Below are positions 5,405 to 23,659 of a DNA stretch of 35,259 nt, piece after piece (the first letter of the stretch is position 1; each line of letters begins with the position of its first letter). The translations under genes and the position numbers were made by a program. The notes below the pieces were generated by a model, which saw only the letters and a program-made list of their open reading frames with translations, was not told the origin of the DNA and searched no databases. The DNA comes from Bacillus multifaciens (GTDB lineage: Bacteria; Bacillota; Bacilli; Bacillales; Bacillaceae_G): contig NZ_JAVBXD010000044.1 of NCBI RefSeq assembly GCF_030756675.1, positions 1 through 35,259 of the forward strand. The letters are read 5' to 3'.

Positions 5405-5857
5405 TTAGAGTTGTTTCGTTTTACTATTTTGTAAATGTGGACACTTAGCGAGTAAAGTAGTGATAAATAATTCTTCGTTCTCTGGTGATAGTTTGACGCT
5501 GCCGAATAGAGCGTTAGGATAGTGAATTTCTACACCGTGAAATGCAGCTGCGGGGCGGAAGCCCATCATCATATCATCGGTTGGATGAATTTTTGTAATA
5601 TTTACGTAGGGAACATTGCACCAAAAAGGACCGCATCTTGCATATAAACTCTTTTCTCGTAATTCGTAGCGAATTCCGAATATAATCCATAACATAAATA
5701 AGTCAAATATTAGAATGACACTAGGAATAACAATCCAATCTACAGAGTTCAATGTGTTATCTAACCAAAGCGGAAGAGAAAGGAGTATGCTAGATAATAG
5801 AATAATTCCAATCATCATATACCAATATCCCTTATCTCGTCGTACTTTCCATCTCAT
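5405..5857 (-). CDS. PH-domain (bPH-like) membrane protein
   Basis: The protein has 150 residues. A short positively charged N-terminus is followed by two membrane segments (about 12-31 and 41-61). The cytoplasmic half shows the bacterial PH-like pattern: G-I-R-Y-E-L then L-Y-A-R-C-G-P-F, V-P-Y-V-N-I-T-K-I-H-P and, near the end, L-S-P-E-N-E-E-L-F. Such proteins are of unknown function. The ATG at 5857 is chosen because GGTGAT, the 3' part of a consensus Shine-Dalgarno, lies immediately upstream; a codon-4-earlier ATG lacks one. The gene precedes the THEP1-like gene on the same strand and may share its transcript. Confidence 0.7.
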   Translation of the reverse strand: MRWKVRRDKGYWYMMIGIILLSSILLSLPLWLDNTLNSVDWIVIPSVILIFDLFMLWIIFGIRYELREKSLYARCGPFWCNVPYVNITKIHPTDDMMMGFRPAAAFHGVEIHYPNALFGSVKLSPENEELFITTLLAKCPHLQNSKTKQL

Positions 5858-5971
5858 AAAATCACCCATTTCTTTGTTTGATATGAAATAATAAAGAGCT
5901 ATACAAATATTACCACATTTTAAGCGTATGTGATTAAGGATAGATTATATTGAACAATAAACATACGATAG

Positions 5972-6069
5972 TTTATCCTGCTATTCGTGGGCAGTAAGAT
6001 CCCCCACCTCAGGATTCAGAGAAAAGAGATAGGGGAGACTGTGACTCATTTTGGAATCGATTTTTTTAT
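5972..6069. repeat. Possible bcr-type intergenic repeat of the B. cereus group
   Basis: The segment is bounded by TTTAT at 5972-5976 and TTTAT at 6065-6069. It contains a GTGGG...CCCCCAC hairpin at about 5987-6007 and a purine-rich stretch after it. From memory this resembles the short bcr1-like repeats scattered through B. cereus-group genomes, which are flanked by TTTAT. I cannot verify this by comparison, and it is shorter than the ~155 bases I recall for bcr1. Confidence 0.4.
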
Positions 6070-6181
6070 GAAAATAAAAAATAACGGAACAGTCCTCGTT
6101 TAATTTACTGAAAAAAATGAATAGAAAGAAAAGTATGATATATTCGTAATATCCAATTATTTTTTAAGGGAGATGGGGAAA

Positions 6182-6832
6182 ATGACAAAGGAAAATCAAA
6201 CAGTTGAAGATAAAGAACTAACGATTTTTAACCATACTGGAAACACAATTGTAACAGAAGATAGAGAAATCCAAATTATTTCCAGATTAGAAGAGCCTCT
6301 TATTGTCGTGTTAGCAAATGTATTAAGTGATGAAGAGTGTGAAACATTAATTGAAATGTCTAAAAATAAAATGAAACGTTCTAAAATTGGTATTTCGCGC
6401 AAAATAAATGATATTCGGACGAGTAGTGGTACGTTTTTAGAAGAAAATGAGGCCGTTACAAGAATCGAAAGACGAATCGCTTCGATCATGAATGTTCCTT
6501 TTGAACATGGAGAAGGATTACATATTTTAAAGTATACAGTTGGCCAAGAATATAAAGCACATTATGATTTTTTTGCAGAAAGTAGTGCGGCAGCAAATAA
6601 TAATCGTATAAGTACTCTTGTTATGTACTTAAATGATGTAGAAGAAGGCGGAGAGACTTTCTTTTCAAAACTTAACCTTTCTGTATCTCCGAAAAAAGGA
6701 ATGGCGGTATATTTCGAATATTTTTATCAGGATGAAGCATTAAACAAACTCACTTTACATGGCGGTGCACCTGTTATCAAAGGTGAAAAATGGGTTGCGA
6801 CGCAATGGATGAGGAGAAGGCCTTTGTATTAA
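6182..6832 (+). CDS. Prolyl 4-hydroxylase (2-oxoglutarate/Fe(II) dioxygenase)
   Basis: The protein hydroxylates peptidyl proline using O2, Fe(II) and 2-oxoglutarate. At 216 residues it equals the length of the structurally characterised B. anthracis P4H and is very similar throughout as I remember it. The iron ligands are H127, D129 (HYD) and H193 (LHGG); K203 is the 2-oxoglutarate anchor. The natural substrate in bacilli is uncertain; collagen-like spore or surface proteins have been considered. The ATG at 6182 is preceded by AAGGGAG with 9 nt spacing; an ATG three codons earlier directly abuts it and is unlikely. The gene is monocistronic. An extended hairpin follows. Confidence 0.93.
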   Translation: MTKENQTVEDKELTIFNHTGNTIVTEDREIQIISRLEEPLIVVLANVLSDEECETLIEMSKNKMKRSKIGISRKINDIRTSSGTFLEENEAVTRIERRIASIMNVPFEHGEGLHILKYTVGQEYKAHYDFFAESSAAANNNRISTLVMYLNDVEEGGETFFSKLNLSVSPKKGMAVYFEYFYQDEALNKLTLHGGAPVIKGEKWVATQWMRRRPLY

Positions 6833-10017: not shown

Positions 10018-10935
10018 ATGGTTATTTTAAATTATTTTCTGGTTTGTGTTATTTTTGGGACGACATTTTTAACGATTAAAATAGGAATTGCAGCAGGGGC
10101 TCCGCCACTTTTTTCAGCAGGAATTCGTTTCTTTTTAGCAGGTATAATTGTTATCATGTTTTTTATTGTGAAACGGAAACCAGTTATACCATACCTTGTA
10201 GTAAAAAGAATTATATTTGCGGGATTTTGTCTTACATTTATGACCTTTGCAACTTTATATTGGGCAGAGCAATATATCTCATCGGGATTAGCAGCTGTTC
10301 TTTCTGCTACCGGTCCAATGATGATTTTATTGCTTCAAACGAAACGAACAAAAAGAAAATTGAGAAGGGAACAACTTTTTGCTTTTATACTTGCTCTTAT
10401 AGGAGTAGTGTGCATTACTTTACCGGGTCTGCAGCAACAATTTTCTTATATGTGGAGCATTGCTTGCCTTGTTATATTAGTAGGTGAATTTTTCTACGGA
10501 ATGGGTACGATCCGTTCCAAGGAAATTTTATCAGATTTACCAAATGTCTCCCCGTTTTTAATTAATGGAATTCAAATGTTTTATGGTGGCTTATTACTGA
10601 TTGTTTGTTCTCTTTTACTAGAGCATCCGAATCTATCTGTCTTAACTTCATGGAACGTTCAATGGCCGATTCTGTATTTAATATTTATCGGTTCAATAGG
10701 AGGACATGGCTTATACTATTGGCTTTTATCCAAAACCAATCCTGTCTTTCCATCTACTTGGCTTTATGTTTCGCCGTTAATTGCTGTTATAACAGGATAT
10801 ATGTTTTTAGGTGAACCAATTAAACCGGTAATGGGGATTGGAGCATGCTTTATCTTGATTGGTGTGTTTATGGCGAATCGATCCACACTTGAGTTGTATT
10901 GGAAACATGGAAAACTATTGAAAAAAGAGATGTAA
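10018..10935 (+). CDS. EamA-family (DMT superfamily) transporter
   Basis: This 305-residue protein has ten membrane segments arranged as two EamA repeats, roughly residues 4-130 and 145-285. The repeats carry the usual signatures, e.g. F-G-T-T-F-L-T-I-K near the N-terminus, A-T-L-Y-W-A-E-Q-Y-I-S-S-G-L-A-A-V-L near 77-94, and P-L-I-A-V-I-T-G-Y-M-F-L-G-E-P near 253-267. Members generally export amino acids or other small metabolites; the substrate is unknown. The ATG follows GGGAGG. The divergent MocR gene and the repeats between them suggest induction by a metabolite that the MocR protein senses. It ends at a hairpin shared with the histidine-kinase remnant. Confidence 0.9.
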   Translation: MVILNYFLVCVIFGTTFLTIKIGIAAGAPPLFSAGIRFFLAGIIVIMFFIVKRKPVIPYLVVKRIIFAGFCLTFMTFATLYWAEQYISSGLAAVLSATGPMMILLLQTKRTKRKLRREQLFAFILALIGVVCITLPGLQQQFSYMWSIACLVILVGEFFYGMGTIRSKEILSDLPNVSPFLINGIQMFYGGLLLIVCSLLLEHPNLSVLTSWNVQWPILYLIFIGSIGGHGLYYWLLSKTNPVFPSTWLYVSPLIAVITGYMFLGEPIKPVMGIGACFILIGVFMANRSTLELYWKHGKLLKKEM

Positions 10936-10969
10936 GGTTTCTTTATTTCGTTCATGATTTTTAAAGTTG

Positions 10970-11013
10970 AAAGGACGTCTTAAGGCTTGTTGTCTTATGG
11001 ACGTCCTTTTTTT
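10970..11013. terminator. Terminator of the EamA gene, inside a duplicated kinase tail
   Basis: AAAGGACGTC pairs with GACGTCCTTT, with inner TTAAG/CTTAT pairing, followed by a T-run. It is nearly identical in sequence to the hairpin at 13881-13923 and belongs to the same duplicated segment. Confidence 0.88.
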
Positions 11014-11171
11014 GGGTAATACACTTTCGAAAGTTCGCTCATGACAGAGATTGTACCATCATGAGAATGTACAAGTTTATAAACAAGTGCCTTTCCAAGC
11101 CCAGTGCCTTTAGAGGAGAAATCAGTTGTTGTTCCGTGGTAAAATTGTTGAAAAAGATTTTCTAACATATC
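11013..11171 (-). pseudogene. Remnant of a histidine-kinase C-terminus
   Basis: Read on the minus strand this encodes MLENLFQQFYHGTTTD, then G-T-G-L-G, Y-K-L-V and G-T-I-S-V. It is the C-terminal ATPase end of a kinase closely resembling the intact gene at 13906-15009. Compared with that copy it lacks about 20 bases near the 3' end, so the C-terminal LPKKG region is frameshifted. The match stops abruptly near 11171; a weak similarity may continue to about 11200 after a deletion. The remnant shares the terminator hairpin of the intact copy. It cannot make a functional kinase. Confidence 0.85.
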
Positions 11172-11407
11172 AAAAATCTATATGGAGATTACGCAACATC
11201 TACTAATGTATCATTTAAATGAAGTTCATAAATTAAAAAGCTTAATTATTTTTAAATAAGAGACTGAAGTAAATTTTGTAACATTCTTCATATCAAATTT
11301 GTATGAATGATACTTAACACCATACCACAAGTTAAAGAAAATACATATGTTGTGGACCTTTTGAGATAGATATTGTTATGCAAAAATGATAACAAGGGGG
11401 CAAGGAA

Positions 11408-12856
11408 GTGTTTAATGATTTTAAATTTGTAGATAATCGTCCAGTTTATGTTCAATTAAAGGATCATTTAAAAAAAATGATTATGAAAGGACACCTGCTG
11501 GAGCATCAGAAGCTTCCATCAACCCGAGAACTTAGTAAATTATTATCGGTTAGCAGAAATACAGTTCTCACTGCTTACGCAGATTTAGAGCAAGCAGGTC
11601 TAATTTATGCAATAAAGGGAAAAGGAAATTTTGTAGGTGAGATTGAAACATTCAAAACGCCATTCATCGAACTAAACTGGAAAGAAAAGGTCAATGAAGT
11701 TACCACGTTAGCTGATGAATTAGATTTAATGAAGCACGGTGTTCGTTGGGAAAAAGGCATGATTTCCTTCAATAGCATTGCTCCAGACGAAAAGCTTTTT
11801 GATGTTGAAAATTTTAAGAGAGCTTTTCTGACTCGAATGTCCATTGAAGGTGATATTGTTTTGAACTACGGATATGCCAAAGGGTATAAACCTCTAATTG
11901 ATTATCTACTTCACTACATGGAAATGAAGGGAGTAGACATTTCCAATAAAGATATTCTTATCACGAATGGCTTCACCGAAGGCTTGGATATTTTATTGTC
12001 TTCTTTAGCTAAAAAATCTGGACGTATTATTTGTGAAAACCCTACTCATCATGCTGCACTTAAACTTTTTCGATTACATGGATTTGATATACACGGGATA
12101 GAAATGAAAGATGATGGTATTGATATTGGTCAAGTTGAGAAAAACTTATCCGAAATGGATTTTGATTTTGCATATCTAATTCCGTCTTATCATAATCCGA
12201 CTGGGATCGTCACATCATCGGAAAAAAGGACTGAAATTATGAAACTTTTTTCCAAACACCAAATTCCTATCGTGGAGGATGGATTTAATGAGGAATTACG
12301 CTATTCAGGTTCCCATTTAGCTCCGTTAATGACTTTCGCCGGACCTGGCAACAATGTTATCTATATCAGCAGCTTTTCAAAAATTCTTTTTCCAGGGTTA
12401 CGTGTTGGGTGGATTTTAGCAGATAAAGAATTAATACACTGCTTAGAAAGTGTGAAAAGGGCACGGACGATTCATACATCCACACTGGATCAGGCAGTAC
12501 TTTATCAATATTTGCATGATGGTTATTTCGAAAAATATTTAAAAAAAGCGAAATCAGTTTATAAGAAAAAATATGAGTTAGCCGTTCAAGCTTGTCACCA
12601 ATATATTCCTTTTCAAAGAATGACTGGGGATGGTGGGCTGCATCTTTTTATAGAATTAGAAAAAGAAATGAATTCGCGTACACTTTTAAAAAAATGTTAT
12701 CAAAAGGGAGTTGTTTTTTCTCCTGGGGACGTCTTTTACACGGATGGAAGGGGAAGTAATACGTTTCGATTAGGATTCTCTCGGTTAAAAGAAGTGGATA
12801 TTCTTAAAGGAATTAAGATAATTGGAGATACATTGAAAAATGAAAATGGGAGTTGA
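11408..12856 (+). CDS. MocR-type regulator of the adjacent ligase gene (DdlR-like)
   Basis: The 482-residue protein has an N-terminal GntR winged helix (about 10-76; L-P-S-T-R-E-L and S-R-N-T-V-L-T-A-Y-A-D-L-E) and an aminotransferase-like domain. The latter carries P-S-Y-H-N-P-T-G at 259-266, I-V-E-D-G-F at 288-293 and PLP lysine K325 in SSFSKILFPGLR. It starts with GTG after GGGGGCAAGG. Its 3' end overlaps the ribosome-binding region of the D-Ala-D-Ala ligase gene, so the two form one operon. In Brevibacillus and clostridia a MocR protein named DdlR activates ddl, which makes that role likely here. The inverted repeat CCACAA...TTGTGG at about 11328-11356 lies in its own promoter region. Confidence 0.9.
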   Translation: MFNDFKFVDNRPVYVQLKDHLKKMIMKGHLLEHQKLPSTRELSKLLSVSRNTVLTAYADLEQAGLIYAIKGKGNFVGEIETFKTPFIELNWKEKVNEVTTLADELDLMKHGVRWEKGMISFNSIAPDEKLFDVENFKRAFLTRMSIEGDIVLNYGYAKGYKPLIDYLLHYMEMKGVDISNKDILITNGFTEGLDILLSSLAKKSGRIICENPTHHAALKLFRLHGFDIHGIEMKDDGIDIGQVEKNLSEMDFDFAYLIPSYHNPTGIVTSSEKRTEIMKLFSKHQIPIVEDGFNEELRYSGSHLAPLMTFAGPGNNVIYISSFSKILFPGLRVGWILADKELIHCLESVKRARTIHTSTLDQAVLYQYLHDGYFEKYLKKAKSVYKKKYELAVQACHQYIPFQRMTGDGGLHLFIELEKEMNSRTLLKKCYQKGVVFSPGDVFYTDGRGSNTFRLGFSRLKEVDILKGIKIIGDTLKNENGS

Positions 12857-12861
12857 AAAAA

Positions 12862-13779
12862 GTGAGAGTTGGCGTAATTATGGGAGGCGTATCCTCCGAA
12901 AAACAAGTATCCCTCATGACAGGGGAAGAAATGATTGCACATTTGGATAAGAGTAAGTATGAAATTATGCCTATTAAATTAAATGATAAAAAAGAGCTTA
13001 TTGATAAGGTAAGAGATATCGATATTGCTTTGATAGCGCTTCATGGAAAATACGGGGAGGACGGTACGATTCAAGGTACACTAGAAACTCTTGGTGTTCC
13101 ATATACCGGAAGTAACATGCTATCAAGCGGTATTTGTATGGATAAAAACATGTCAAAAAAAATGATTCGTTATGAGGGCATTCAAACACCGGATTGGATT
13201 CATATTTCAAATATGGAAGAGCTTCAATTTGATGAAATAGACAAAATGGGGTATCCACTAGTGGTAAAACCAAATTCGGGCGGTTCCAGTGTAGGCGTAA
13301 AAATCGTATATGATAAGGAGTCTTTACTTTCTTCACTTGAGGATGTGTTTAAATGGGATTCTGAAATCTTAATTGAAAAATATATAAAAGGCGAAGAAAT
13401 TACCTGTTCCATTTTGAACGGAAAACTTTTACCGATTATTTCAATTCAATATGCGGCTGAGTTCTTTGACTATCATGCGAAATACGATGATGCGGCTACG
13501 ATTGAAGAGATTGTAGAACTTCCGGTGACAACTCAAAAGCGTGTCGCTGAGGCTGCGATGGCATGTTATAGAGCATTAAAATGCAGTGTTTATGCTAGAG
13601 TTGATATGATTATAAAAGATGGAATCCCATATGTGATGGAAGTGAATACATTGCCGGGGATGACAAAAAATAGCTTACTACCTAAAAGTGCTCATGCGGT
13701 GGGAATCTCTTATAGTAAACTATTGGATATGATTATTGAAATCTCTTTAAAGGCTAGGAGAAGTGAAGGTATTAAATAA
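12862..13779 (+). CDS. ddl: D-alanine--D-alanine ligase
   Basis: This 305-residue ATP-grasp enzyme joins two D-alanines for the peptidoglycan stem peptide. MGGVSSEKQVS is at 7-17, HGKYGEDGTIQG at 61-72, KPNSGGSSVGV at 136-146 and EVNTLPGMT at 260-268. The omega-loop reads F-F-D-Y-H-A-K-Y at 201-208. The K-Y pair aligns with K215-Y216 of E. coli DdlB, which predicts D-Ala rather than D-lactate as second substrate; VanA-type enzymes differ there. Start: GGGAG lies 9 nt before the GTG at 12862, while the in-frame TTG three codons earlier abuts it. It is co-transcribed with the MocR gene. Chromosomes of this group usually also carry a ddl elsewhere, so this may be a regulated second copy. Confidence 0.93.
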   Translation: MRVGVIMGGVSSEKQVSLMTGEEMIAHLDKSKYEIMPIKLNDKKELIDKVRDIDIALIALHGKYGEDGTIQGTLETLGVPYTGSNMLSSGICMDKNMSKKMIRYEGIQTPDWIHISNMEELQFDEIDKMGYPLVVKPNSGGSSVGVKIVYDKESLLSSLEDVFKWDSEILIEKYIKGEEITCSILNGKLLPIISIQYAAEFFDYHAKYDDAATIEEIVELPVTTQKRVAEAAMACYRALKCSVYARVDMIIKDGIPYVMEVNTLPGMTKNSLLPKSAHAVGISYSKLLDMIIEISLKARRSEGIK

Positions 13780-19440: not shown

Positions 19441-20911
19441 ATGGAATTTCAATTACCTAATATAGATGGTGAAGAGTTAACAATTGCAGCGATTCAAGAA
19501 GCAATGGAAACGGGGAAGTTAACAGCAAAAGAACTTGTTATGTATTATTTGTATCGAATCGCAAAGTATGATAAAGCTGGTCCTAGTATAAACGCTTTAC
19601 TTGAAATAAATCCTGATGCAATTTTTCTTGCTGAAGCAATGGATCATGAACGAAAGAAAAAGGGGAAAAGAGGACCTCTCCACGGGATTCCAGTTTTATT
19701 GAAAGATAATATAGAAACAGAAGATAAAATGCATACAAGCGCCGGTATGCTTGCTTTAGAAAATCATGTGAGTCAAAAAGATGCATTTCTAGTCAAAAAG
19801 CTTCGAGATGCAGGAGCTGTAATTCTTGGGAAAACGAATATGACAGAATTAGCAAATGGCATGTCACTAAGAATGTGGGCTGGATATAGCGCAAGAGGAG
19901 GCCAAACTTTGAATCCTTATGGTCCTGCAGAATTTTTTGTAGGTGGATCCAGTTCTGGTTCCGCTGCTGCAGTGGCTGCAAACTTTACGGTATTATCGGT
20001 TGGTACAGAGACAGATGCCTCTATCTTAAGTCCACCAATACAAAATTCTGTAGTTGGCATCAAACCGACTGTTGGACTGATTAGTAGATCAGGTATCATT
20101 CCGTTTACATATTCACAAGATACTGTAGGGCCCATTGCTCGAACTGTAGAAGATGCTGCTCTTTTATTAAGTGTTACTGAGCGGCAAAGATGAACTAGAT
20201 CCAGCAACTTATCGTTGTGAAGAAGGTGGTGTACAAGATTATACTGCATACTTAGATAAGGGCGGGTTAAAGGGAGCTCGCATTGGTGTGTTTCAGCAAG
20301 TTTCTGAAGAAAATTTTCTACCAGGTGAATTTGATAAACATTTATTCTCTAAAGTGATTCACATTCTGAAAGAAGAGGGAGCAGAAGTAATTGAGAATAT
20401 TGAAATCCCTTCTTTCCATAGAAAATGGAGTTATGAAGTGCCAACTTATGAGATAAAACATAGTTTAGGAAATTATCTGTATCAACTACCATCACAGGCT
20501 CCTGTTCATAATGACCACGAATTAATAGAATTTAATAATAAACTTGGCGATAAAGCATTAAAGTATGGACAAAATATGCTTGAATATAGAAAATCTTTAC
20601 CAAATACATTAAGTAATTCGACATATATAATGGCGAAATTGGAAGATCTTTATTATTCACAGAATGAAGGAATAGATTTTGCGCTTCAAACATATAACCT
20701 GGATGCCATTTTATTCCCTGCTTATGTAGGGTCTACTCTTTCTGCAAAAGCAGGTTATCCATCAATTGCTTTACCAGCAGGATATATGGAAAACGGTCGT
20801 CCATTTGGCATTACTTTTGCTGGAACGGCATTTAGTGAGGGAACTTTAATTAAGATTGGTTACGCTTTTGAGCAATCGACAAAATTTCGGAAACATCCTA
20901 GTTTAAAATAG
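19441..20911 (+). pseudogene. Amidase-signature family gene, split by a frameshift
   Basis: Two reading frames, 19441-20193 and about 20171-20911, together cover one amidase of roughly 490 residues. The first part has the catalytic lysine K88 (LLKDN), the G-G-S-S-S-G-S-A-A-A motif with cis-serine S170, and the nucleophile S194 in T-D-A-S-I. The second carries the C-terminal half including A-Y-V-G-S, A-G-Y-P-S-I-A-L-P-A-G-Y and G-I-T-F-A-G-T-A-F. The frame changes near 20165-20190, where intact relatives read continuously into G-K-D-E-L-D. All catalytic residues are in the first frame. The first frame stops within the domain, so activity is doubtful. A sequencing error is the alternative. Confidence 0.85.
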
Positions 20912-20949: not shown

Positions 20950-22200
20950 ATGAATAAAAAAATATGTACGGGTAGTGATATAGTGAAGATTGGTAAATTT
21001 GGAGAAGTAAATAAATTAAGTATCGATACTATTAGACATTATATGGATCTAGGATTGATTGTGCCTGAAAAGAAGGGAGGGCATTATTTTTTTGATGAGC
21101 GCTGTCAAAATGTATTAGAAATTATTTTGGAATTTAAAGGGATGGGATTTAGTTTAAATGAGATTAAACAATTGTTTCTTTATAAAAATTTTGGTGAATT
21201 TACGGATTATGAACAAGATACGTACTATCAATCTTTATTTATGGATAAATATAAGCATGTTGAGCAGGAAATAAATAATTTAGTAGAAATAAAGGACAAA
21301 TTAAAGACGAAATTAGATGCGTTATCAGCAAAATCGAAAGGTTCTAACGTGGTCATGGGGATTGATTTAAAAGTACTCGATATGCTGAGATGTTTTAAAT
21401 GTAGTGACAAGCTTATTCTACAAGATGGAATTATTAATAGAAATCAAATTATGGAGGGAAAGTTAATTTGCAATTGTGGTGAAAAATGTTTTGTGGAATC
21501 AGGTATTTTAAAAGTTGGTAATTCATTTCAAGCGGCTACTGCCCACAATCATGAAGAATTTATTCTTGAATATATTCATGCAACTGATCCATCTTATTTG
21601 GAAAATATCCATAAAGTTGGAGAATGGTTAAAGAGGAAACTGGGTCAATTAGACTTAAATGATAAAGTAGTACTTGAGTTAGGATCCGGAGTTGGTTTTT
21701 TTCTGAGAAATGTTTTTCGGGAGTTACCGGAAAGTTGCTTATATATTGCCGTTGATCGCAGCTTAGAACGGCATCGATTTCTAAAAGGTGTATTAGAGAG
21801 AACTGGGTTTAAAAGAAATGTCCTCTTTATTTGCGCTGATTTTTTAAATATACCAATAGAGGATTACTCCGTCGATATCGTGCTTGATCATTCGGGTACT
21901 AGTAACTACAGCTTTGAAAATGAGGAGTTTTTGCTACGTGAAGTAGATTCCCTTTTTAAGCATAATTGTTACTTATTGGGAACATTTATAGCTTTTAAAA
22001 ACTTTAGCACCAAAAGTAAAATCGAAGCTAAATTCAGAGACAACTTTATAGCTAGAAAAATCAAGGAAAACATCAACAGTTTAAAGTATATTCCTCTTGA
22101 GGAAAGGATTTCTGAATATGTTGATCGAGGCGGGAAGTACGAAAATTTCTTTGTACAGGGGGAAGAAATATATTCATATTCATTTTTTGGTAAAAGATAG
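20950..22200 (+). CDS. Fusion protein: MerR-type HTH, zinc-ribbon, SAM methyltransferase
   Basis: The 416-residue protein has three parts. Residues 12-82 form a MerR winged helix (L-S-I-D-T-I-R-H-Y-M-D-L-G-L and F-K-G-M-G-F-S-L-N-E-I), followed by the usual dimerisation helix (about 85-128). Residues 146-190 look like a Trm112-type zinc ribbon: C148-x2-C151, then C174-x-C176-x3-C180. Residues 200-416 are a class I methyltransferase with motif I V-L-E-L-G-S-G-V-G-F at 241-250, acidic D269, A-D-F at 296-298 and V-D-I-V-L-D-H-S-G at 308-316. Zinc-ribbon plus methyltransferase recalls rRNA or small-molecule methylases. The ATG at 20950 lacks a clear ribosome-binding site; the GTG at 20983 is an alternative matching usual MerR starts. 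An MFS exporter follows. Confidence 0.82.
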   Translation: MNKKICTGSDIVKIGKFGEVNKLSIDTIRHYMDLGLIVPEKKGGHYFFDERCQNVLEIILEFKGMGFSLNEIKQLFLYKNFGEFTDYEQDTYYQSLFMDKYKHVEQEINNLVEIKDKLKTKLDALSAKSKGSNVVMGIDLKVLDMLRCFKCSDKLILQDGIINRNQIMEGKLICNCGEKCFVESGILKVGNSFQAATAHNHEEFILEYIHATDPSYLENIHKVGEWLKRKLGQLDLNDKVVLELGSGVGFFLRNVFRELPESCLYIAVDRSLERHRFLKGVLERTGFKRNVLFICADFLNIPIEDYSVDIVLDHSGTSNYSFENEEFLLREVDSLFKHNCYLLGTFIAFKNFSTKSKIEAKFRDNFIARKIKENINSLKYIPLEERISEYVDRGGKYENFFVQGEEIYSYSFFGKR

Positions 22201-22220
22201 GGTTAACCCTATCTTTTTTC
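22192..22220 (+). terminator. Palindromic terminator overlapping the fusion gene's stop
   Basis: AAAAGATAGGG and its perfect complement flank TTAA; a T-run follows. The stem includes the last codons and the stop codon, so termination happens at the very end of the gene and the MFS gene needs its own promoter or read-through. Confidence 0.75.
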
Positions 22221-22253
22221 ATTTTTTTCAAAAAAAATTATGGATTACACCTA

Positions 22254-22284
22254 TTGATATCGGGTTCACCCGGCAGCTTAACCT
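22254..22284 (+). promoter_or_regulatory. Possible MerR-type promoter of the MFS gene
   Basis: TTGATA at 22254-22259 and the weak -10 TAACCT at 22279-22284 are separated by 19 bases, the abnormal spacing characteristic of MerR-activated promoters. The palindrome CGGGTTCACCCG (22261-22272) lies inside the spacer. Alternative -10-like sequences (TATTATATAA, about 22286-22295) exist, so this is tentative. Confidence 0.4.
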
Positions 22285-22320
22285 TTATTATATAAAAAGT
22301 TTAAGTGAGGTGGAGCATTT

Positions 22321-23616
22321 ATGGGAGCACTACAAATGAGTATAGGTAATGAAAAGAACAAAAAAGAAATGAAAAATCTTTTCCTCTATTCTACAGGAAA
22401 GACTGTCTCGATATTTGGTACAGCTATTTATAATTTTGCGTTAGGGTTATACGTTTTAAAACTGACGGGCTCGGCGTTAAGTTTTGCTGTGACCCTCGTA
22501 TTAGGCACTATTCCGATGATTATCATCAATCCGTTTGCCGGGGTGATTGTAGATAAGGTCAATAAAAAGACGTTAGTTGTTTTGATGGATTTTCTTAGTG
22601 GAATCCTGTTAGTTTTTGTTTATATATTGTGTATGAAATATGAATTAAATTTACTCATCATTTACACCACTACCTTCCTTTTGACGGTGTTTACTACTTT
22701 CTTTGGAATAGGTTTAGAAGCAGCAAAGCCAAACATTGTATCTGAAAAAATGTTGATGAATATTAATTCTGTTAGTAAAATAATCGACTCAGTCTCTTTG
22801 ATTATAGGCCCCATGTTAGGAGGGATTGTTTTTGCAATCTTTGATATGAGAACTTTTATTATCATAAATGGAATTTCTTTTATCCTTTCCGGAATATCGA
22901 TGATGTTTATTCATTTTAAACTTTTCAATTTCCAAACAAATGAAGATCATACAGGTGGGAAAATTCATTTAATAAGTGATATAAAGGACGGATTTAACTT
23001 TTTGTTCAAAAGAAAAAGTATTAAGAGCATGTTTACGATCTTAATATTAATTAATTTCTTTCTCGGCTTTGCAGTGACTGTTCCATTACCGTATATGATC
23101 AATACAGTTCTAAAGCTAGGGTCAAAAGAGTTTGGTATGATCCAAGGTGCCTTTCCGATGGGGATGATTTTAGGAGCTTTATTGGTAAAGAAAATCACAG
23201 AAAGAATTTCCTATTCCATTCTTTTAAAATATGTAAGTTTTGCTTTATCGATTTGTATGATTCTGTTAGGAGTTCCAGTTATGCTGAAAAGTTTACAACT
23301 GAACTCCATCGTTTACACCTGTTATTTCATTGCTGTCTTGTTCTTGTTTGGAGTAGTCATAGCGCTAATTGATATCCCTCTAGCTTATTTTATGCAAAAA
23401 GAGATTCCAGATGAATATAGAGGTAGAGTACTAAGCATTGGCATTAGTATTGCAAAAATAATGCTTCCTATGGCGATGATATCATCAGGATCTCTATTAA
23501 ATATCCTGCCTTCTTACGTCATGCCTATTGCAGGAGGAGTGTTATTCTTTCTATTTAGTGTGCGTTCAGCGAATAAAGTGAACTTTGAACTAACTTCAAA
23601 AAATATAAGTATTTAA
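22321..23616 (+). CDS. MFS transporter, macrolide-efflux-like (MFS_3 type)
   Basis: This 431-residue transporter has about twelve membrane segments. It shows the MFS_3 pattern: F-G-T-A-I-Y-N-F-A-L-G-L near 34-45, the loop N-P-F-A-G-V-I-V-D-K-V-N-K-K near 70-84, and A-Y-F-M-Q-K-E-I-P-D-E-Y-R-G-R-V near 354-369. MefA and related proteins expel drugs; the substrate here is unknown. GAGGTGGAG lies 5 nt before the ATG. It follows the MerR/methyltransferase fusion by 120 bases that carry a terminator, a palindrome and a possible 19-bp-spacer promoter. It is probably induced by the fusion protein. Confidence 0.9.
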   Translation: MGALQMSIGNEKNKKEMKNLFLYSTGKTVSIFGTAIYNFALGLYVLKLTGSALSFAVTLVLGTIPMIIINPFAGVIVDKVNKKTLVVLMDFLSGILLVFVYILCMKYELNLLIIYTTTFLLTVFTTFFGIGLEAAKPNIVSEKMLMNINSVSKIIDSVSLIIGPMLGGIVFAIFDMRTFIIINGISFILSGISMMFIHFKLFNFQTNEDHTGGKIHLISDIKDGFNFLFKRKSIKSMFTILILINFFLGFAVTVPLPYMINTVLKLGSKEFGMIQGAFPMGMILGALLVKKITERISYSILLKYVSFALSICMILLGVPVMLKSLQLNSIVYTCYFIAVLFLFGVVIALIDIPLAYFMQKEIPDEYRGRVLSIGISIAKIMLPMAMISSGSLLNILPSYVMPIAGGVLFFLFSVRSANKVNFELTSKNISI

Positions 23617-23621
23617 TTTGT

Positions 23622-23659
23622 TATAGGGCCTGATTATTATGTAATAATCAGGCCCTATA
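23622..23659. other. Perfect 18-bp palindrome after the MFS gene
   Basis: TATAGGGCCTGATTATTA (23622-23639) is perfectly complementary to 23642-23659 with only 2 bases between. It sits five bases after the stop codon. No T-run follows, so it may act as a stable 3' end or as a terminator of atypical form. Confidence 0.7.

Follow-up and report, generated by a model that had tools for sequence, protein, structure and literature searches.

MerR regulators are textbook switches in which the sensing tail sets what each of them responds to. In the multidrug regulators BmrR, Mta, TipA, EcmrR and AlbA this tail is a GyrI-like, TipAS or similar domain. An earlier study states that every regulator known in COG0789 (the MerR family) binds palindromes between −35 and −10 boxes lying 19 or 20 bp apart (PMC1526738), and a review reports that some bacteria have Trm112 joined to methyltransferase domains and calls the role of bacterial Trm112 unknown (PMC5372719). 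In the 35,259-nt stretch of Bacillus multifaciens DNA analysed here (the window), a single open reading frame (ORF) joins a MerR head to a zinc ribbon of the Trm112 type and a class I methyltransferase, and is followed by a gene for an exporter of the major facilitator superfamily (MFS). This fusion/exporter module is real and well supported, and in the fusion a MerR regulator carries an effector domain of a new kind. We consider it likely that it is a one-component MerR-type activator whose recruited Trm112-methyltransferase module acts as the sensor. The literature searched (titles and the openings of abstracts, with most subscription journals outside its coverage) held no description of a MerR-methyltransferase fusion.

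The comparison rests on 37 fusion loci including that of the window, all sampled within the Bacillota and collected by similarity to the window protein. Thirty-four of them, with an ORF of >300 aa, were aligned; the broken loci L006 and L082 were left out, as was L091, which is cut by a contig end. In one aligned member (L080, at 10486) the ORF as called does not include the beginning of the MerR head. Identity to the window protein ranges from 77% down to 21% among the aligned fusions and, because homologues at only 21-22% identity keep the domain order, the window fusion is not a chance ORF. Coordinates are those of the whole stretch and residue numbers those of the 416-aa ORF as listed (Table 1).

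A sequence-only reading of this DNA had proposed a three-domain fusion at 20950-22200 followed by an MFS ORF at 22321-23616, with an enzyme domain in the place of the ligand-binding tail. The gene order, the three domains and the replacement of the tail are all borne out by the analysis. Pfam recognises MerR_1 at residues 14-76 (E 4e-9, above cut-off), MerR-DNA-bind at 56-119 and Methyltransf_31 at 238-345 (E 8e-10), and the MerR-type winged helix-turn-helix (MerR_1 at E≤0.01) is found in 31 of 32 aligned members. The AlphaFold2 (AF2) model of the window fusion, made from a 32-row alignment (pLDDT 91.0, pTM 0.78), has a winged helix, a helix at 86-127, a small beta ribbon at 156-189 and, at 201-416, a methyltransferase fold, the seven-strand Rossmann-like fold of class I methyltransferases. 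The protein length of 416 residues given earlier holds for the ORF, but translation probably starts at GTG 20983 to give 405 aa, since relatives begin at that codon: it aligns with the ATG of L064-L066, where the upstream sequence is similar, and the column is Met in 81% of the members bearing the S-adenosylmethionine (SAM) motif and in 85% of those without it.

The ribbon is Trm112-like, as had been suggested, although not with all the cysteines then counted. C148, C151 and C174 are Cys in 34/34 members and C176 in 33/34, so that at least three of the four zinc cysteines are kept in every one, whereas C180 is Cys in 1/34 and is no part of the ribbon. NCBIfam Trm112_arch matches residues 141-186 of the window protein at E 3e-4 (20.9 bits, below its cut-off of 77) and 27 of 32 aligned members at E≤0.01; Pfam Trm112p matches 5 of the 32. 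A profile of these 32 members matches the PDB chain 6zxw_H at E 2.9e-9, which we take to be an archaeal Trm112 (the entry is titled 'Uncharacterized protein'). The second Cys pair of the fusion is CxC, compared with the CPxC...CxxC-like knuckle of Trm112. One could imagine that this ribbon binds zinc or another metal reversibly, as in CueR or ZntR, with the methyltransferase as a passenger, and the MerR head does score best against the ZntR, CueR and MerR models. These scores however stay far under the cut-offs (38.5 of 143 bits), and it is the DNA-binding part and the helix that produce them. The ribbon belongs with the structural Trm112 type, and a passenger methyltransferase would not keep its site. 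The adjacent gene encodes an MFS protein, with no known metal exporter type matched above cut-off (a ferroportin match lies below it). We regard a metal sensor as very improbable.

The promoter that the sequence-only reading had placed at 22254-22284 proved exact to the base, and its anatomy upholds the proposed control of the MFS gene by the fusion. The pattern TTGNNN-N19-TANNNT is found in 17/17 of the fusion-MFS gaps scored, a set that includes the broken L006 and the cut L091 but not the broken L082. Among other spacers, 15, 16, 17, 18 and 22 bp gave 0/17, 14 bp two, 20 bp two and 21 bp three. Within the spacer, a dyad centred at position 7.5 has 58% of its possible pairs complementary over 14 sites, with other centres at ≤36%, and this value was reached at any centre in 0/2000 spacer shuffles; the 14 sites include that of L005 and exclude the near copies L006, L065, L069 and L091, while L064 and L066, which are alike, are both in. 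A 19-bp spacer with a dyad is the hallmark of MerR-activated promoters, and, judged from sequence, the predicted site fits a MerR-family target promoter. A sigma-70 scan with spacers of 16-18 bp listed 8 sites, against a shuffle mean of 13.2; the exporter promoter is absent from the list, as expected with its 19-bp spacer. The terminator over the fusion stop codon (−16.1 kcal/mol, z −4.9) was the one found in a scan of the whole stretch, where 1.3 are expected from shuffles, and relatives have hairpin-like sequence at the same place, as judged by eye. With this terminator and these hairpins, the exporter probably needs its own promoter.

Table 1. Coordinates of the features of the fusion/exporter module in the window
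Feature	Position	Strand	Basis or remark
MerR / Trm112-type zinc ribbon / class I methyltransferase fusion	20950..22200	+	ORF as listed, 416 codons; Pfam, AF2
Fusion from likely true start GTG	20983..22200	+	405 aa; start codons of relatives align here
MerR helix-turn-helix and wing, residues 12-80	20983..21189	+	Pfam MerR_1 14-76; AF2 helices and strands
Long predicted helix 86-127, presumed dimer coiled coil	21205..21330	+	AF2 monomer model
Trm112-type zinc ribbon, residues 137-189 (C148, C151, C174, C176)	21358..21516	+	Profiles, conservation
Class I methyltransferase domain, residues 201-416; SAM motif LGSGVG 244-249	21550..22197	+	Pfam, conservation, AF2
Intrinsic terminator over fusion stop codon	22192..22217	+	11-bp stem and T run
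MerR-type exporter promoter	22254..22284	+	TTGATA 22254-22259, 19-bp spacer, TAACCT 22279-22284
Operator dyad CGGG-TTCA-CCCG in spacer, centre between 22266 and 22267	22261..22272	+	Spacer-shuffle test
MFS exporter, MFS_1/MFS_3, TIGR00900-like	22321..23616	+	431 aa; Pfam, NCBIfam
Perfect 18-bp inverted repeat that follows the exporter and may be a terminator at the end of the module	23622..23659	+	Missing from terminator-scan list

The exporter gene is inherited together with the fusion. Conservation of the MFS neighbour in relatives had been named as a test, and the next downstream gene on the same strand is an orthologue of the MFS gene in 19 of the 37 loci (in L005 past an inserted transposase gene; in L007 a small overlapping ORF lies between the two genes). 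The pairwise identities of the two proteins co-vary (r=0.96 for the 16 full-length pairs, 0/2000 permutations). The MFS label requires four changes on the tree, which implies repeated gain or loss of the pairing. By Pfam the partner is MFS_1 (E 1e-23) and MFS_3 (E 3e-17); by NCBIfam it matches TIGR00900 (E 1e-63, 215.6 bits, below the cut-off of 319.6), and also EntS, MefA (78.8 of 675 bits) and MefB (83.8 of 800), all below cut-off, so that at the NCBIfam cut-offs it does not count as a Mef macrolide exporter.

Four MFS relatives do not adjoin a full fusion, and three of them were scored for an N19 site (the fourth, L094, in G594, runs off its piece). Genome G077 has scattered fusion remnants upstream of an open MFS gene (L092, 5060-5338), which keeps an N19 promoter, TTGATG-TTGCCCTTTCCCGATGAAT-TAAGCT. 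The intact fusion of the same genome (L070) is on another contig, beside an APH-family gene with the promoter TTGATG-TTGCCTTTTCCCGATGAAT-TAAACT. These two promoters are nearly identical, which is most simply read as a single operator acted on in trans. Genome G956 has an MFS relative with an N19 site (L093) ~18 kb from the fusion. In Lysinibacillus fusiformis (L005, 6999-8363) an insertion sequence (IS)-type transposase, named from its translation, lies between the fusion and the MFS gene; this locus is outside the 17 scored gaps, with an N19 site present in its sequence. The transposase has TAGGGTAAACCCTATCT on both sides, and the N19 promoter thus stays with the MFS gene. Locus L080 holds two diverged fusion copies ~4 kb apart (5614-6831 and 10486-11637), one with an MFS gene and the other with an alpha/beta hydrolase gene, and the same genome, G991, has a third, motif-less copy (L087).

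The SAM motif separates the family into two sets. A missing SAM-binding site or an MFS neighbour that is not conserved would have spoken against the original proposal, and neither outcome was seen. GxGxG is kept in 16/16 full-length MFS-paired members, while it is lost in 13 of the 18 non-MFS members, which adjoin other genes. Over the 34 aligned members, 21 including that of the window have motif I and 13 have lost it. G245, G247, G249, R253 and D297 are invariant in all 21, and the acidic residue after strand 2 is Asp, as D269 in the window, in 95% of them. The 13 motif-less members keep the MerR head and the zinc cysteines, and for one of them, L073, AF2 predicts the whole methyltransferase fold all the same. 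These distant members without a SAM motif suggest an enzyme turned sensor, and their sequences point to sensing as the common role of the fusion family. Since no pocket in the window's branch is kept as clearly as the SAM site, the protein might instead sense SAM or S-adenosylhomocysteine, reading the methylation state or methylating itself, with the exporter moving a methylated metabolite or similar and no foreign drug being involved. We think this improbable: the site is missing in 13/34 members, a scan of one or two neighbours per locus turned up no methionine or SAM gene, and the named models nearest to the exporter are those of H+ antiporter, enterobactin, macrolide and tetracycline exporters, each matched below its cut-off.

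The best-scoring solved fold for the window fusion is that of RlmA(I), and the overall fold of ribbon plus methyltransferase is RlmA-like. This could be taken to mean that the protein is bifunctional, the MerR half inducing the exporter and the methyltransferase half being a resistance enzyme that acts on a drug or on ribosomal RNA (rRNA), as does RlmA(II)/TlrB. Fold resemblance shows no function, however, and the likeness to one RlmA amounts to 21% identity over 84 residues, with a profile match over 126 columns of the methyltransferase core at a probability of 94%. Membership in the RlmA family was rejected with the RlmA ribbon model PF21302, which was run on 8 genomes with 11 fusion copies: its matches above cut-off were limited to RlmA-type genes of two genomes, G003 and G004, that lie apart from the fusion, a third, weak match in G269 was on a contig other than that of the fusion, and none of the fusions was matched. 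PF21302 is also not among the 13 families matched by 32 aligned members. The ribosome protection considered in the sequence-only reading finds no support here, the sequence likeness to the one RlmA compared being confined to the methyltransferase core. Moreover, a DNA-bound activator would be an unlikely modifier of rRNA, and the existence of members that lack the SAM motif suggests a non-catalytic role for the domain. A bifunctional protein thus appears unlikely.

We return to the methyltransferase module as the likely sensor of a MerR-type activator. The fusion would sit as a dimer, joined via the long helix, on the dyad within the over-long 19-bp spacer of the exporter promoter. A small molecule, probably a toxic compound, would enter the methyltransferase pocket, which in the window's branch may also bind SAM. 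Binding of this ligand would under-wind the DNA and bring the −35 and −10 boxes into register, and the MFS exporter then made would clear the compound. By analogy with Trm112 and its partner enzymes, the zinc ribbon probably holds the methyltransferase or relays its state to the DNA-binding part. A more far-reaching idea, to which we attach rather little probability, is that a family of one-component regulators of the Bacillota made a Trm112-methyltransferase enzyme the sensing part of a MerR switch; one branch, still active as an enzyme, would methylate its own inducer, and other branches would have lost the SAM site. Methylation itself would then reset the switch and the exporter would remove the product, whereas the SAM-less branches would be pure ligand sensors that moved to metabolic genes such as those of flavoproteins, amidohydrolases and purine or solute permeases.

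Several observations weigh against the activator with a methyltransferase sensor as we favour it. The N19 pattern was spotted by eye in the alignment and then counted, the 17 loci include several that closely duplicate one another, and the MFS ends of the scored gaps were placed by hand. Taken singly, the sites have their best dyad centre at 7.5 in 11/18; it lies elsewhere in L001, L003, L005, L007, L067, L068 and L069. In the same-strand gaps downstream of non-MFS members the N19 count of 7/14 (shuffle mean 2.1, maximum 8; other spacers 0-4/14) was matched in some shuffles. No MFS neighbour is present at 18 of the 37 loci, and as the sample was gathered by similarity to the window protein, closeness to it favours an MFS neighbour. 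A second MFS relative in G894 (L095) has no N19 site, and 'drug exporter' is a family guess because the TIGR00900 match is below cut-off. A working enzyme would likewise be expected to keep its SAM site, as the MFS branch does, and the AF2 model of the motif-less L073 was built on an alignment that holds motif-bearing rows. The whole case, finally, is made of sequence and prediction.

Fusions without an MFS neighbour, for which one or two neighbours were scanned at each of the 18 loci, adjoin a variety of genes. The five that bear the motif lie next to an APH-family kinase, a PAF-acetylhydrolase-like protein, a DrrA-like ABC ATPase, an alpha/beta hydrolase and a pirin. The motif-less fusions adjoin flavoproteins with FMN_bind (3), amidohydrolases (2), DUF5058, a DAO oxidase, a cellulase, a transglutaminase, a solute permease and a purine permease, with two neighbours lacking a Pfam match. 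Divergent gaps of the non-MFS members carry the N19 pattern in 6/7 (shuffle mean 1.2, maximum 4; other spacers 1-3/7), which together with the 7/14 same-strand gaps speaks for the sensor role. Upstream of the non-MFS fusions themselves it occurs in 8/18, compared with 4-7/18 for spacers of 14-18 and 20-22 bp, and with so little excess self-regulation was rejected. The motif-less fusions L077, L085 and L088 lie upstream of flavocytochrome-like reductases (FMN_bind and FAD_binding_2) with N19 promoters in all three, and perhaps regulate anaerobic reductases.

Relatives were sought in genomes with residues 129-416 of the window fusion as the query, each genome count taking in its centre genome. 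In the order of the Bacillus relative 9/299 genomes matched at E≤1e-20 and 32/299 at E≤1e-3, those beyond the nine being weak partial matches. The class of the Alkaliphilus relative gave 7/391 and the phylum of the Lysinibacillus relative 12/398, both at E≤1e-8, with G303 counted in both. A shallow scan of genome contigs (two peptide patterns, five loci) added relatives in Bacillus sp. FJAT-29937, Alkaliphilus, Lysinibacillus, Heyndrickxia and Ureibacillus. A plasmid origin was rejected: five records matched, of which tblastn gave a relative at 43.5% identity on a 2.6-Mb Acetoanaerobium record and one at 24.6% in Vescimonas, and three matched the MerR head only. Phage origin was likewise set aside, with no phage match and no confirmed viral-contig match, as was an anti-phage role, with PADLOC matches limited to mad2 in the methyltransferase part (E 2e-10) and mad1 over 28 residues of the head. 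Elsewhere in the window, directly upstream of the fusion, an amidase is split over two overlapping frames (19441-20193 and 20171-20911; Pfam Amidase 1-208, then 208-377), which is either a broken gene or a sequencing error. Two further overlapping genes, read from ORF translations, presumably encode a GntR/aminotransferase-like (MocR-type) regulator (11408-12856) and a D-Ala-D-Ala ligase-like protein (12853-13779).

If our explanation is true, a methyltransferase tail whose SAM motif is kept with the exporter and lost elsewhere would be a clear case of an enzyme turned sensor, and one could search for inducible exporters of a new class. With promoter, regulator and target side by side, the idea is easy to test. 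Like BmrR, Mta, TipA, EcmrR and AlbA, the fusion has a MerR head, a long predicted helix and a C-terminal effector domain, a neighbouring exporter and a 19-bp-spacer promoter with a dyad, from which activation is predicted on the spacer rule given in the study cited above (PMC1526738). The family profile matches BmrR, MtaN, TipA and EcmrR chains via the DNA-binding part, and among the 39 PDB chains listed as matches none is covered over both parts in the best stretch. The effector differs, being a Trm112-type ribbon with a class I methyltransferase and not a GyrI-like or TipAS tail. From RlmA(I) and RlmA(II) (TlrB) the fusion is set apart by the lack of a PF21302 match, an identity of ~21% in the core only, its MerR head and the loss of the SAM motif in 13/34 members. 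Its exporter resembles TIGR00900/Mef-type proteins, with matches to TIGR00900, EntS, MefA and MefB under the curated cut-offs. With its Trm112-like ribbon (6zxw_H, Trm112_arch in 27/32), the fusion offers a setting for the bacterial Trm112 knuckle; the accessible part of the review names no DNA-binding head in Trm112-methyltransferase fusions (PMC5372719), whereas here the pair lies within a transcription regulator.

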